In this document: in pieces, positions 49,024 to 53,381 of the stretch
Numbering within the stretch: the stretch's first letter is position 1
Layout: each line of letters opens with the position of its first letter
DNA from: an uncultured Sphingopyxis sp.
GTDB lineage: Bacteria > Pseudomonadota > Alphaproteobacteria > Sphingomonadales > Sphingomonadaceae
Length of the DNA: 57,806 bases
NCBI GenBank assembly: GCA_937873425.1
Contig: CALMYE010000285.1
Coordinates: 1-57,806 of the forward strand
Reading direction: 5' to 3'
The notes under the pieces: generated by a model
Databases searched by the model: none
What the model was told of the DNA's origin: nothing
What the model saw: the letters and a program-made list of their open reading frames with translations, nothing else
Position numbers and translations under genes: made by a program

Positions 49024-49518
49024 TCAGTTATTGCGAAGGCCAAGCCGGTCGGCGTCATCAACAAGCGTGATGCGCCCGTCCCAGTCCCACAGGACCAGAT
49101 TGAGCGCGTCCGCGGGGGCGCCGCGGGCGTAACTCGGGACAACGATGCCGGCATAGCCTTGCGCGATCGCGGCCTCCGCCAGGTCTTGCGTCGGGACCGC
49201 CTTGCCTGAGAGCATCTTATCACGCCACGCCGGGTCGGCGAGCTCAGCCGGTGCGATACCGAAAGGCCGCAATGCAGCCCCATCGCGGCCATCGAGCAAC
49301 GGTCCGATGTCGGCCTGATAGGCGACCAGCGTGGTGGGCTGCAGCGTGCCAACCTGATTGGCCTCGCGCAGCGCGGTCTCAGGGGCGAGGGAAGTATAGA
49401 GCGCGATGCGCCCGATGCGATTGAACCGTCCGCCAAACCGGGCCGCCCCCTCCCCTGAGAGGGGTTCGCGGGACCAAACCGGATTGTGGGCGCGGTAGAG
49501 CAGCCCGGTAAAGAGCAT
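49024..49518 (-). CDS. RES-domain toxin
   Basis: 164 aa. LYRAHNPVWSREPLSGEGAA, then RFGGRFNRIGRIALYTSLAP and ETALREANQVG, give the Arg, Glu and Ser pattern of RES toxins, which deplete NAD+ by phosphorolysis. Starts five bases after the antitoxin stop, so they form one operon. Full-length for the family. Confidence 0.88.
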   Translation of the reverse strand: MLFTGLLYRAHNPVWSREPLSGEGAARFGGRFNRIGRIALYTSLAPETALREANQVGTLQPTTLVAYQADIGPLLDGRDGAALRPFGIAPAELADPAWRDKMLSGKAVPTQDLAEAAIAQGYAGIVVPSYARGAPADALNLVLWDWDGRITLVDDADRLGLRNN

Positions 49519-49522
49519 TGGA

Positions 49523-49873
49523 CTAGGCGTGGACGCCGGCGTCGACCGCGTCGATATAGGTCAGCACGTCATCGGCCCGGTTGCTTTGCACCAGCTGCAT
49601 GGCGGTCTGGCCCGAGAAGCCGGGCAGCGGTTCCGAGCGGTACCAGGCATAGGCCAGCAACGCCGAGCCAAAGCGCGGCTCGACCTTGTTGAGCACCTCG
49701 ACCATCTGGCGAAGGCGGCGCTGGGTACGTGTCGACGCGATCCGGTCTTTGCGCTGGATCGCGTCCTTGCCGAGGCCCAGCGAGCGTGCGAGTTCGTCGC
49801 TGGTGGTCCGCAGCGCGTCGACGATCTTGCGCGGAGCAAACGCGCCGTTGTCAGCGTAGTTTTGAATCGCCAT
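49523..49873 (-). CDS. Xre/MbcA/ParS-type antitoxin
   Basis: 116 aa. An N-terminal helical part (TSDELARSLGLGKDAIQRKD) and a C-terminal DUF2384 domain (VEPRFGSALLAYAWYRSEPL, then PGFSGQTAMQLVQSNRADDV) are the standard partner of RES toxins. ATG 49873 follows GGGAAAGTGCA. A perfect dyad 19 nt upstream is its likely autoregulatory operator. Confidence 0.88.
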   Translation of the reverse strand: MAIQNYADNGAFAPRKIVDALRTTSDELARSLGLGKDAIQRKDRIASTRTQRRLRQMVEVLNKVEPRFGSALLAYAWYRSEPLPGFSGQTAMQLVQSNRADDVLTYIDAVDAGVHA

Positions 49874-49891
49874 TGCACTTTCCCATGAATT

Positions 49892-49911
49892 TTGACGCGA
49901 TATAGCGTCAA
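49892..49911. promoter_or_regulatory. Operator of the RES-Xre module
   Basis: TTGACGC-GATATA-GCGTCAA is a perfect dyad (7-bp arms, 6-bp centre) 19 nt before the antitoxin start. TTGACG could also serve as a -35 box. Confidence 0.65.
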
Positions 49912-49985
49912 TCTTTGCGGTAATCAAGGTTTGCTGTGCCCAGACCCAGCAGGTGTTCCGGTTCAACCGCAGAGGTTTCCCGCTC

Positions 49986-50186
49986 TTACAAAACCACGAC
50001 CTGCAATTCGATCGCACCGGGAAGGCCCTCTTCTGCAGGCATAACGCAGAAGGGCTGGAGCTTGCTGTCCGTCCTCACCACGGCATGGCTCTGCCCGGAA
50101 TTTGCGGTCATCCGAATGGCGACACGCTCGGCATTGGCGCGTCCGCACAGGATCGCCCTTCTGGGATCGAGGCTCTGAAGCAGCAT
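49986..50186 (-). CDS. Small hypothetical protein, 66 aa
   Basis: Starts at ATG 50186 with GGGAGGTGACC, an excellent ribosome-binding site, 17 bases after the stop of the split DUF6927-like gene. MLLQSLDPRRAILCGRANAE; no family recognised. Confidence 0.6.
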   Translation of the reverse strand: MLLQSLDPRRAILCGRANAERVAIRMTANSGQSHAVVRTDSKLQPFCVMPAEEGLPGAIELQVVVL

Positions 50187-50202: not shown

Positions 50203-50552
50203 TTACGGCGTTGCCGGGAAGAATGTGCGCGGCGCACGCTTGGGGGGCACGACTTCGAACCGGCGCTCCATCAATCTGCTGATGCGGAACCGGCCTCGAC
50301 CATCGGGCGTACTGAGTTCAATCTTCGCCCCGCGCTTTGTCACCCTGAATTCGGCGTGTTCGCTCCCGTCGGTGAACTTCATGGGTTCAGGCAGCCGGAT
50401 CATGTCGCCATCGGCGATCTTGCGTTCCTTCAGCCGCAGCTGCCGGTAGCACCGGTTGCGCCAGTCGAGGGCATAAGGGTGATTGGTTGGCCCCAGCTCC
50501 TCGAGGATATTTCTGGGACATCCGGCCTCCACCGGCCCGGAGTTTTCATCCA
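50203..50552 (-). CDS. DUF6927-like protein, exon 2 (interrupted by a group II intron)
   Basis: The 3' part of a gene split by the intron 50553-53107. Joined to exon 1 (53108-53381) it gives 624 nt, 207 codons plus stop, in one frame: exon 1 ends GGC TAT AAG GAC A and exon 2 starts TG GAT GAA AAC, reading GYKD-MDEN. This half encodes SGPVEAGCPRNILEELGPTN and a C-terminal beta-rich part ending in RISRLMERRFEVV. Reading exon 2 alone from an ATG at 50577, inside the intron's last bases, adds a spurious N-terminus. Function unknown; the family is plasmid-associated. Confidence 0.85.
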
Positions 50553-50581
50553 GTCGGGTAGGATTGGTGCTGCTCATGGAG

Positions 50582-52501
50582 TCAGCCCTGATCCCCCCGC
50601 CGAACCGCACGTGCAGCTTTCACTGCATGCGGCTCTCCACTGTGACGAACCGTTCCTTCGCGTTGATCGGGCAATCGGCCAGCATGAGTGTCCCGGTGGC
50701 ATTGCTCACACAGGACCACCGTCCTGCGGGCGCGGGCCGCCTTCATTCTCACGACAAAACCGCGGTGCGAAACATCGGCCATTCCCCGGATATGATGCAC
50801 CTGACACGGAATATCAGACCGACCACAGGCCTCGCATTGCTTGGCATTCTGACGGTCAACCCAGTCCGTACGTGAGTGAGTGAACACCTGGGTCCAAGGC
50901 TGGATATCAATCCTGGACGAGGTGGCCGGATCACGTTTCAGATGAGTCAGTTTCCAGACTTTTACCGATCGGGGCTGGCCATCGACGTCGTAGTCGATTG
51001 TGAATTCCTGCCCCGTCCTCATGCGGGCCACGACCGCTCGCACACTGGTTTTGTGCTTGCTGGCCAAGGTCTTGAACAAGCTCCACCGCTGGAGGAACTC
51101 AAGCCTGTTCAGCTTGAAGCTCACATCCTTGGCAAGAGCATAATAGTTCGCAAAACCCCGCAATTCGGCGTTGTAAGCAAGGACGATCTCAACATCGCTG
51201 CAGCTGAGCAGCAGGCTACGATGACGCGGCTTTAACACCGACAGATCACCATAACCTTTTGCGGAGGCAAACGCGTGGACCTTCTCCCAAGGAACATGCA
51301 GCTGCATCACTTCCGACGGCGGCCTACGGAGGAAGCTTACGGAACCTTGTCGGCTCCGGACAACCCGTTGGCGTGTCGTATATGTGCGAACCTCATATCC
51401 AAGGAAGGCGGCCCCATCGCTCGCCTTGCGGATACCGCTTTTCTCCTCGGACACCGTAAGCGCCAGCGCATCGGTCAGGAATGCCCTGACTTCGGCGAAC
51501 ACGCTTCGTGCATCCTCCTTGCTACCGATCACTCCAATCATGAAGTCATCTGCGTAGCGACAGTAACGAAGTCGGCGATAACCGGGGTCCATGGCGTCTC
51601 CTGACGGCATCGACCGCTTTTGCGGCAGTAAGGTTTGGATTTTGGCCAAGGCGGCCGCAACCTTCACCTCGTCGACATTGTCTTTGGCCCGCAGCATGGT
51701 GACGCGCGTCCGTTGTTTCTGGATGCGTCCAGCCAGTCGCCGATATTCCGGGTTCGTGGCACGGACCTTCCCCCTCTCGAAAGCCGCGATCCGTTCCGCC
51801 ATGAACATATCGAGTTCATGGAGATAGATGTTGGCCAAGATTGGAGAGACGATACCGCCCTGCGGAGTGCCGCTGTAGGTCCGGGTGTGAACCCGGTCTT
51901 CCATAACACCCGCCTGAAGCATGCGACCGATCAGACCGATGAATTTCTCGTCATCGATCCGTTTCCGCAGCAGCCGCAGGAGAATGTCATGGTCGATGTT
52001 CTCGAAGAACCCTGCGACATCCACATCTACGAGCCATTTCACCCCCGTCCATACGGCTTTGACGTGTTCAAGCGCCGTATGACACGACCGGCCCGGCCGA
52101 AATCCATGGGAGGCGTTCGAGAACACCGGCTCATAGATCCGTTCGAGCAGCTGCCGCGCCACTTCTTGAACGAGGCGGTCGTCACGTGTGGGAATCCCCA
52201 ACGGACGCCGTTTGCCCTTGCCTTTCGGGATAAACACCCGACGCACTGGTTTGGGATTATAGGTCCCTGCCGTCACGCTGGCGATAATCGGGTCGAGGTC
52301 TTCCGGTCCGAAGTCCGCGAAAGTCTCGCCGTCAATGCCCGGCGTCATCGCACCCTTGTTGGATGCGATCTTTTGGAGCCCCTCCTCCCAAAGGAGGCGA
52401 GACCCCATCAGACGATAAAGCCCATTCACCCGTTTGCCCGACGCAACGAGCGTCGGAATGGCCTCCAACCGGCCTTTCACAGTTTCTGGCAGCATCAGCA
52501 C
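50582..52501 (-). CDS. ltrA: Group II intron-encoded reverse transcriptase/maturase with HNH endonuclease
   Basis: 639 aa. Reverse transcriptase blocks include KGKGKRRPLGIPTRDDRLVQ, DVDVAGFFENIDHDILLRLL and the catalytic YADD in YCRYADDFMIG. A maturase X domain follows (FANYYALAKDVSFKLNRLEF), and the C-terminus is an HNH nuclease (CEACGRSDIPCQVHHIRGMA, then CEQCHRDTHAG) for second-strand cleavage. The reading frame lies in domain IV, but its last codons run through domain V (EPHAVKAARAV) and stop in domain VI at 50582, which is unusual. The start at 52501 leaves about 600 nt for domains I-III. Confidence 0.95.
   Translation of the reverse strand: MLMLPETVKGRLEAIPTLVASGKRVNGLYRLMGSRLLWEEGLQKIASNKGAMTPGIDGETFADFGPEDLDPIIASVTAGTYNPKPVRRVFIPKGKGKRRPLGIPTRDDRLVQEVARQLLERIYEPVFSNASHGFRPGRSCHTALEHVKAVWTGVKWLVDVDVAGFFENIDHDILLRLLRKRIDDEKFIGLIGRMLQAGVMEDRVHTRTYSGTPQGGIVSPILANIYLHELDMFMAERIAAFERGKVRATNPEYRRLAGRIQKQRTRVTMLRAKDNVDEVKVAAALAKIQTLLPQKRSMPSGDAMDPGYRRLRYCRYADDFMIGVIGSKEDARSVFAEVRAFLTDALALTVSEEKSGIRKASDGAAFLGYEVRTYTTRQRVVRSRQGSVSFLRRPPSEVMQLHVPWEKVHAFASAKGYGDLSVLKPRHRSLLLSCSDVEIVLAYNAELRGFANYYALAKDVSFKLNRLEFLQRWSLFKTLASKHKTSVRAVVARMRTGQEFTIDYDVDGQPRSVKVWKLTHLKRDPATSSRIDIQPWTQVFTHSRTDWVDRQNAKQCEACGRSDIPCQVHHIRGMADVSHRGFVVRMKAARARRTVVLCEQCHRDTHAGRLPDQREGTVRHSGEPHAVKAARAVRRGDQG
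50602..50635 (-). ncRNA. Group II intron domain V
   Basis: 34 nt on the minus strand: GAGCCGCATGCA, GTGAAAG loop side, CTGCACGTGCGGTTC. The GNAAA-type loop and the AGC-like catalytic triad position at the stem base mark domain V. It overlaps the end of the reverse transcriptase coding frame. Confidence 0.92.
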
Positions 52502-53107
52502 ACCCCATGATCGGTGGTTGAAGAATCACAGCTGCCGCCCTTCCCCCGGCCTTCCCCGCTTTCGGCCCGATCGCTCGAGACCTTATACGGTTGCACCGCC
52601 GCCTCCGAAGAGGTCGATGTCCCGGGCATTACCCCGGGCGTTTGAGTAATATGGCGGCTCCGTACCCATGCAGGCCGGCAGAAGCCGCCTGTTTAGGGCA
52701 TCCCGTAGTTACGCTGAATGGAGATGCGGCGCGGTTAGGTGTCCCGTTCGTCCACTAAACCCCTCGACGAGAGGCGCACCGGATGGGCTGAGAAACAGAC
52801 GGTCAGGACATGAGACCGCTGCCATCATCCGGACCTGGCGTGACAGTCGCTTTCGCCAGTATCGCTATATAGATTGCTGCAGACTGGGATTTAAGCAGTG
52901 TAGCCTTCACCATACGCACCTTGCTCTGACCGTCATCGCCTCGATTTGCGACTGAGACGCATCCGGCCTTTTCCCGAACATGCTATTGTTCCCCGTCCCT
53001 TTCAGGATTTCAGACCTTGTGAGGCCCGAGGTTAGTTCGGCGAGCAGAGGCATTCTCAACTTACCTCATCATCACTGATACTCCATTTCAGCGCCACAAC
53101 GGCGCAC

Positions 53108-53381
53108 TGTCCTTATAGCCGAACAGGAGGCCGTCTGCGGCCTTGGGGTTCCAGCGCACCAGACAGATCACCGCGGAGATGGCGTGGGTCTGGTTGTTCG
53201 GTCCAAAGCGCTGGACAGCCGCGTAATAGGCCCCGGTTGTGGACACGCTTCTGATGACCCGGCATCCTTCAAAGCTGCCGGTTTCTTCATTCTCGCGCTC
53301 CCATGTGAGCTGATTGTCGAGATAGGCCTTGGGAGTGTCGAAGCCCCCCATTCCGGCACGGTGCATGTAAAGCCAGCCCAT
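53108..53381 (-). CDS. DUF6927-like protein, exon 1
   Basis: The 5' part of the split gene: MGWLYMHRAGMGGFDTPKAY to LLFGYKD, 91 codons plus one base. I recognise the MGWLYM and TPKAYLDNQLTWER start as that of the DUF6927 family. Without splicing, translation runs six codons into the intron (SAPLWR-stop, ending at 53088) and gives a 97-aa product. GAAGGAGAACACGC precedes the start. It starts 13 bp after the upstream gene's stop. Confidence 0.85.

Follow-up and report, generated by a model that had tools for sequence, protein, structure and literature searches.

A group IIA intron that appears to spread by targeting one conserved codon of a DUF6927 gene in related bacteria

A group II intron in a DUF6927 gene

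The 57,806-nucleotide (nt) contig CALMYE010000285.1 of an uncultured Sphingopyxis sp., referred to in full as the window, carries between positions 50203 and 53381 a gene for a DUF6927 protein that is interrupted by a group II intron. The intron encodes its own reverse transcriptase, and from sequence comparisons it appears to spread by targeting one conserved spot of this gene, which is kept readable, across related soil and water bacteria. The parts of the locus are:

53108-53381, minus strand: 5' exon of the host gene, 274 nt, 91 codons and the first base of a split codon (joined frame, homologues)
50553-53107, minus strand: group IIA (Ll.LtrB-like) intron, 2,555 nt (Rfam, joined frame, alignment with relatives, fold of the tail)
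50582-52501, minus strand: intron-encoded protein, 639 amino acids (aa) from a GTG start, with reverse transcriptase (YADD), maturase and AI2M-like HNH endonuclease (Pfam, motif)
50602-50635, minus strand: domain V (Rfam RF00029 and RNA folding)
50555-50599, minus strand: domain VI (RNA folding)
50559, minus strand: predicted bulged branch-point A at -7 (fold and sequence)
50203-50552, minus strand: 3' exon with the DUF6927 domain and the stop codon (joined frame, Pfam)

On the minus strand, the intron begins with GTGCG at 53107 and ends with ...CCTACCCGAC at 50553. These GTGCG...GAC ends, which a preliminary description of the locus had placed correctly, fit the group II consensus (5' GUGYG and 3' AY) and are found in relatives. 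Domain V, also proposed there, was recovered both by folding and by the Rfam model RF00029, which spans domains V and VI (57.2 bits against a threshold of 40, E-value: 1.2e-8). The Rfam match ends at 50576, within the domain VI of the preliminary description. When the last 100 nt were folded, domain V took its standard form and domain VI came out longer, with one A bulged out at -7, the branch point predicted earlier; this fold favours the 3' end at 50553 over that of the Rfam match. Domains V and VI were covered by RNA folding, and domains I to III were compared by sequence alignment. The intron is single-copy in the source genome.

In the intron-encoded protein, RVT_1 and Intron_maturas2 both exceed their Pfam cut-offs, the YADD motif is present and the C-terminus matches AI2M-like_HNH (29.5 bits, cut-off 23). 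The NCBIfam group II equivalog model TIGR04416 scores 295.1 bits, slightly below its cut-off of 300. When solved structures were ranked by E-value, the top match was LtrA of Ll.LtrB (5g2x, residues 28-604, E-value: 1.9e-110), with weaker matches to 6ar1 (E-value: 2.2e-50) and 6me0 (E-value: 1.5e-37), structures that we take to be of the CL and C classes. The ratio of nonsynonymous to synonymous divergence (dN/dS) of the protein is approximately 0.07 between the window and locus L002 of our survey and approximately 0.22 between the window and L097, so the protein appears to be under constraint. By sequence, the element is a group IIA intron of the mobile Ll.LtrB-like or mitochondria-like class.

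Removal of the intron restores the host frame

Removal of the intron yields a single 207-codon frame with a split ATG codon, which reads ...FGYKD-MDEN... and stops at 50203. The exact restoration of this frame, claimed in the preliminary description, holds in the joined sequence and in an uninterrupted homologue: a gene on the Sphingopyxis macrogoltabida plasmid NZ_CP012701 encodes a protein identical to the joined protein at 207/207 residues, contains the exact 50-mer junction and has 0 mismatches in the 300 nt upstream and 3 in the 300 nt downstream. Homologues were found in 272 plasmid records, 89 of which contain 80% or more of the joined protein at a single location, so that homologues do continue across the proposed junction. 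A real coding gene is therefore split, as had been described; the Pfam DUF6927 domain itself is not, as it is contained entirely in the 3' exon (exon residues 21-93), separated by the intron from an N-terminal part without a named family.

Residues Y89, K90 and D91, immediately before the insertion site, are invariant across 20 aligned 5' exons. Folded alone, the N-terminal exon product gave a confident model (predicted local distance difference test, pLDDT, 92.7) and the DUF6927 exon product a moderate one (pLDDT 73.4). No PDB fold matched at an E-value ≤ 0.001 for either the N-terminal model (851 matches at E ≤ 10; the best, a phosphatase, at 0.41) or the model of the DUF6927 part (281 matches at E ≤ 10). 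The family PF21992 is sparse, matching 6 of 289 genomes of the class (5 above the cut-off), and a literature search found no paper mentioning DUF6927. The host-gene homologue is frequent on plasmids, 183 of the 272 matching records being predicted conjugative.

Among 249 genomes of the family, 26 match the host protein. Six of these (the window's own genome, G017, G125, G149, G174 and G237) carry the host gene in two pieces, split at residue 91/92 with intron sequence between them; G122 has a second, truncated copy of the gene. No uninterrupted host-gene copy was found in the source genome (92% complete), and with a single intron copy there, production of the full protein should depend on splicing.

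Comparison of filled and empty alleles showed an exact junction in 8 of the 10 pairs tried. In five distinct comparisons (window/L049, L003/L045, L017/L035, L101/L041 and L105/L041, with L042 repeating the last two), the exact junction is accompanied by 0-2 mismatches per 250-nt flank, while the flanks of L002/L031 contain 8 and 1 mismatches. The pairs L060/L029 and L002/L030 are without an exact 28-mer junction. No duplication or loss at the insertion site was seen in these comparisons, which matches the prediction for retrohoming. L101 and L105 have identical exons and introns that are only 79.5% alike; the same flanks hold either of two introns or none (L101, L105 and L041/L042), and on this comparison one allele has been filled by two intron lineages.

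One codon in many diverged genes

Among the loci collected, 60 (a redundant set) have a blastn match that extends to an intron end, at 77.6-100% identity. All of their readable ends, 49 at the 5' side and 54 at the 3' side, abut a DUF6927 exon at the same codon (103/103), and none of the close relatives among the 60 loci was found elsewhere. This uniformity is not a product of selection through the host gene for most of the set, as 52 of the 60 loci were chosen via intron or intron-protein searches or as the neighbour of such a match. The 41 full-length copies were reduced to 28 that are distinct by intron plus flanks. Eighteen of these (L097 included) are at least 99.88% identical to L097 over the intron, in records from Sphingomonas, Sphingobium, Novosphingobium, Sphingopyxis and Rhizorhabdus.

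The host genes of these near-identical introns are far more diverse. Among the 26 distinct copies with an intact frame, 121 pairs have introns less than 0.25% apart (120 pairs among 16 members of the majority cluster, plus L019-L108); their host proteins are 36-100% identical, with a median synonymous divergence (dS) of 1.10. Near-identical introns in diverged host genes indicate that the histories of intron and gene differ and that the intron moved recently. The sequences suggest that the intron has recently, and repeatedly, homed into a single invariant Y-K-D-(M) motif by horizontal transfer.

An old intron, passed down with its gene and lost on many occasions, would also occupy a single site in all close copies, and in two pairs the dS values of host gene and intron protein are indeed similar (L060/L002, 0.234 vs. 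0.207; L106/L107, 0.630 vs. 0.523). In most pairs, however, the introns are approximately 100% identical while host dS is approximately 1, near-identical empty alleles exist beside filled ones and two different introns occur in identical exons. We find this explanation scarcely credible, and for the majority cluster the sequence comparisons already contradict it. The co-divergence of gene and intron in L060/L002 and L106/L107 was also considered as proof of splicing, and was dropped: close empty alleles exist for both L060 and L002, and the introns of L060, L002 and L097 lie at similar distances from each other (dS 0.19-0.21).

A guide predicted to tolerate synonymous codons

The predicted exon-binding sites (EBS) and delta of the intron, and the intron-binding sites (IBS) of the 5' exon, are:

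53108-53113, minus strand: IBS1 AGGACA, consisting of the second and third bases of the Lys codon, the Asp codon and the first base of the Met codon (complementarity to EBS1)
52805-52810, minus strand: EBS1 TGTCCT, intron positions 298-303, complementary to IBS1
52811-52812, minus strand: delta (CA), pairing with the first two bases (TG) of the 3' exon
53114-53119, minus strand: IBS2 candidate GCTATA, 6/6 complementary to TATAGC at intron positions 239-244
52864-52869, minus strand: EBS2 candidate, intron positions 239-244, 6/6 paired with IBS2

The perfect 6-bp IBS1-EBS1 match of the preliminary description is present. It is strengthened by the 8-mer formed by delta and EBS1, which has a chance expectation of 0.03 and is found once in the intron, and by its homologous place in relatives. 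In the other 27 of the 28 distinct copies, EBS1 reads TGTCTT and starts at intron positions 293-297. With wobble pairs allowed, EBS1 is paired 6/6 in all 28 copies, and delta and EBS1 together pair 8/8, continuously across the splice junction, in 26 of them, including the window; the exceptions are L010, with a changed 3' junction, and L109, with a changed delta. If the guide letter of the window were imposed on all copies, only 22 of the 28 would pair 6/6.

The host word is A-R-G-A-Y-A|TG, in which R and Y are third codon positions, faced by the U and G of the common guide UGUCUU. This guide pairs with every synonymous variant seen, and an 8/8 pairing with it is predicted for 22 of the 23 empty sites, a set that was not dereplicated. 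The guide of the window, UGUCCU, is narrower: it is perfect on AAG and should lose AAA hosts. L016, which shares TGTCCT with the window, has AAG GAC in its host gene. The wobble pattern involves two informative purine third positions (where the Watson-Crick guide letter for G would be C and U is found) and is a pattern rather than a test. The Lys codon is AAA at 6 of the 28 filled sites and at none of the 23 empty ones (Fisher p 0.027), in non-independent samples from which we conclude nothing.

With an invariant encoded motif and with U and G opposite its third codon positions, distantly diverged genes would remain targets of the intron. We propose tentatively, and with a little less than even confidence, that this lineage homes to a protein motif and not to a fixed DNA word. 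Its guide would have come to carry U where the third codon position is a purine and G where it is a pyrimidine (AAR GAY A|TG), so that wobble accepts all synonymous versions; together with conjugative plasmids, this would have let near-clonal copies spread epidemically at a single codon, and their common 2.5 kb would then have become a joint for swaps of exons and plasmid halves. Homing endonucleases that ignore third codon positions are the protein counterpart of such a codon-tolerant RNA guide.

Exchange of exons across the shared intron

Upstream of the intron, L022 (with L096 and L102, and with L097 for 455 nt) matches L020 over 3,395 nt at 99.94% identity, the 5' exon being 100% identical. 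Downstream, it matches L006 and L098 over 3,968 nt at 99.92%, with a 100% identical 3' exon. L020 and L006 themselves are only 78% alike upstream and approximately 75% alike downstream, and the introns of L020, L022 and L006 are identical but for one or two bases. The simplest reading of these sequences is a crossover within the shared intron that swapped plasmid halves, including the exons, and any of the three may be the recombinant. This is one such trio among the 26 intact genes. As the intron lies between a confident N-terminal fold and the DUF6927 part, such an exchange would swap whole protein parts.

L020, L006 and L022 are draft records, and the third type (L020) is represented by a draft only. 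A short-read misjoin of the 2.5 kb repeat was considered as the source of the pattern and rejected, as the complete-plasmid records L098 and L102, from separate strains, show the switch by themselves (76% alike upstream and 100% downstream of the intron).

Because homologous recombination between intron-bearing plasmids clearly occurs in this trio, recombination of whole gene regions could be proposed as the means of spread instead of retrohoming. Near-identical introns are, however, mostly found in host genes with dS of approximately 1, with identity that starts and stops at the splice junctions, and recombination into diverged empty alleles would have brought exon sequence along as well. We judge this route to be very improbable as the general explanation.

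Proposed mechanism

It is highly probable, from these comparisons, that the element is a mobile group IIA intron, active now or until recently, that has a single conserved codon of a DUF6927 gene on plasmids as its home. The host gene would be transcribed, and the intron RNA, with its own maturase, would splice out downstream of the A in the Met codon to leave a message for the 207-residue protein. The excised RNA, together with the reverse transcriptase and HNH nuclease, would find empty alleles on incoming plasmids by pairing of delta and EBS1 with A-R-G-A-Y-A|TG, which encodes the invariant Lys-Asp and the following Met. The intron would be copied into the site with the flanks unchanged, as the matched empty and filled alleles suggest, and would travel between genera on conjugative plasmids. 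Shared intron copies would then provide stretches of identity in which diverged plasmids may recombine and exchange exons. The sequences themselves establish the boundaries, the frame, the fidelity to one site among the loci found, the recency, the empty alleles, the guide pairing and the swapping of flanks; from them we infer splicing, retrohoming, dependence on the maturase and a benefit of the wobble guide.

A splicing-dead insertion, by which the intron knocks out a dispensable plasmid gene and is simply carried along, has in its favour that the host frame is broken in 2 of the 28 distinct copies: L010 has a one-base difference at the 3' junction and L005 has a stop early in the 3' exon. 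Splicing here is deduced from sequence, and in the unspliced reading the 5' exon extends only 6 codons into the intron before a stop (97 aa in total). That the frame is exactly restored in the other 26 copies, that the catalytic parts are canonical, that the intron protein is conserved in both window pairs and that no close relative was found at another site all argue against a dead insertion, which we regard as unlikely.

Besides the two broken frames, several observations weigh against an active, splicing intron or against parts of its proposed pairing. The intron proteins of L066 (397 aa) and L107 (577 aa) are shortened, and in a string search the HNH string CEQC was absent in 8 of the 28 distinct copies, all from the lineages of 77-80% identity. 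The word TGTCCT has a chance expectation of 0.47 in the intron, so the 6-bp match is weak when taken alone, and a TAC Tyr codon in many relatives breaks one pair of EBS2-IBS2. Most copies arrived recently and the closest empty allele of the window is almost identical to it, so intact exons are no proof of selection for splicing; these sequences do not allow constraint that predates insertion to be told apart from selection for splicing that followed it.

Divergent copies, distant relatives and neighbouring genes

The closest relative of the window intron (98.7%) is L016 (3395-5610), in a metagenome bin labelled Hyphomicrobium, with a host gene approximately 49% alike in the protein of the 5' exon; either the host range is broader or the contig was misbinned. 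L053 (2363-6075) contains an intron copy split by approximately 1.15 kb of non-intron DNA; at the two ends of this DNA the intron sequence overlaps by 8 nt, the kind of mark that an insertion sequence would leave. In L055, L065 and L103 (Sphingopyxis sp. FD7 plasmid pSFD01), a 5'-truncated intron is still attached to the 3' exon. The truncated intron of pSFD01 lies near an IS6-family transposase, and the same plasmid has an uninterrupted DUF6927 gene. Genome G257 has two contigs (L072 and L082), each with the last 93 nt of the intron beside a different DUF6927 3' exon, and so seems to carry two filled genes. A phage origin was considered and rejected, as a viral collection gave only 3 loci at 30-32% identity.

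More distant introns, with proteins approximately 48-63% identical over their best segments, similar ends and an EBS1 at a similar position, lie inside ardC, a zincin-like antirestriction gene, on sphingomonad, sinorhizobial and Kozakia plasmids. Nine of 14 distant loci (not dereplicated) have a same-strand ardC at the junction (L024, L068, L071, L099, L110, L111, L112, L113 and L114), four are not in ardC (L067, L069, L070 and L081) and L115 has the same target word without an ardC match. Insertion is after VFN-G (L068 and L110-L113, and L115 by its target word), GIN- (L117 and L071) or EQVE-G (L024). A possible further site, FEELA (L114), is doubtful, as the ardC match runs slightly past the assumed intron start. 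EBS1 pairs 6/6 in L024, L068, L110, L112, L113, L115 and L117, and 5/6 in L071 and L114. The guides at the three sites (CGUUGA/UGUUGA, UGUUGA and CUUCGA, respectively) have G or U opposite each third codon position, and no more than one letter separates those for VFN-G and GIN-, a similarity that points to step-by-step shifts from one word to another like it within a single gene.

Two of the distant relatives, L067 and L081, lie beside ardC on the opposite strand. On plasmid p3 of Sphingobium sp. CAP-1, two neighbouring genes each contain one of a pair of related introns: ardC, interrupted after GIN (L117, 1811-4399), and the DUF6927 gene (L099, 2501-5055). The neighbourhood of the host gene in the window includes ParB-like and ArdC-like genes, with ardC upstream of the host gene. 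Directly downstream of it, at 49024-50017 on the minus strand, are adjacent genes for a RES-domain protein and an Xre/MbcA/ParS-type antitoxin, likely to be, from their sequences, a RES-Xre toxin-antitoxin pair on a plasmid.

Comparison with known systems

In the available part of one source, group II introns of bacteria are said to lie, as a rule, between genes or in genes that are not conserved (PMC6003770). The preliminary description had called a position inside a real coding gene uncommon. The coding gene itself is borne out by the restored frame and continuing homologues, but the position is the site of every close relative found, and introns in plasmid genes are already known. Ll.LtrB of Lactococcus lactis and Ef.PcfG of Enterococcus faecalis are introns in conjugative relaxase genes, which are coding genes of plasmids; as far as the available text describes them, they are 99.7% identical, occupy the same conserved position in relaxase genes that are 61% alike and have been shown to splice and move (PMC5072309). 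Group II introns have also been described in phage coding genes, one of them antirestriction-like (PMC12350094, in part). From these examples, the kind of system reported here is already known. Among the literature matches listed, judged by title and the start of the abstract, and with the group II intron database and subscription papers outside the scope of the search, no description of this intron lineage or of a codon-tolerant guide was found.

The likeness to Ll.LtrB extends to the intron protein, which is closest to LtrA among solved structures, and the Lactococcus relaxase-gene intron L118 (pAH82) has a 5' GTGCGCC, a 3' end in ...AC and parts of the core in common with the window intron. 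The window lineage differs from Ll.LtrB and Ef.PcfG in its DUF6927 host, in being alphaproteobacterial, in a guide matched to third codon positions and in the many more natural host genes with the intron at the same codon in this survey. The phage-gene introns differ in having phage hosts, and the available part of their source describes no comparable series at a fixed codon (PMC12350094). The ardC introns differ from the window lineage in occupying other conserved codons of another gene with other guides. The introns of the Novosphingobium plasmids pNL1 and pLA1 (L108 and L109) lie at the same codon of the same gene and are 77-78% identical to that of the window, from which they form a diverged sub-lineage. 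A group IIA intron of N. aromaticivorans, which may be the pNL1 copy, has been named Nv.a.I2 (PMC12350094, in part).

The alleles compared here form a natural series, in which one gene is empty, filled or differently filled in different genera and the host proteins range from 100% to 36% identity. This series makes site choice, tolerance of synonymous codons by the guide, the need for splicing and exon exchange directly testable. Exon shuffling by Ll.LtrB in relaxase genes was reportedly described by LaRoche-Johnston, Bosan and Cousineau in 2021. There, as here, a group II intron serves as the joint for exon exchange between two genes; the present case differs in that the recombinants are natural plasmids, seen by sequence comparison only, and it suggests that an intron can knit together otherwise diverged plasmids.

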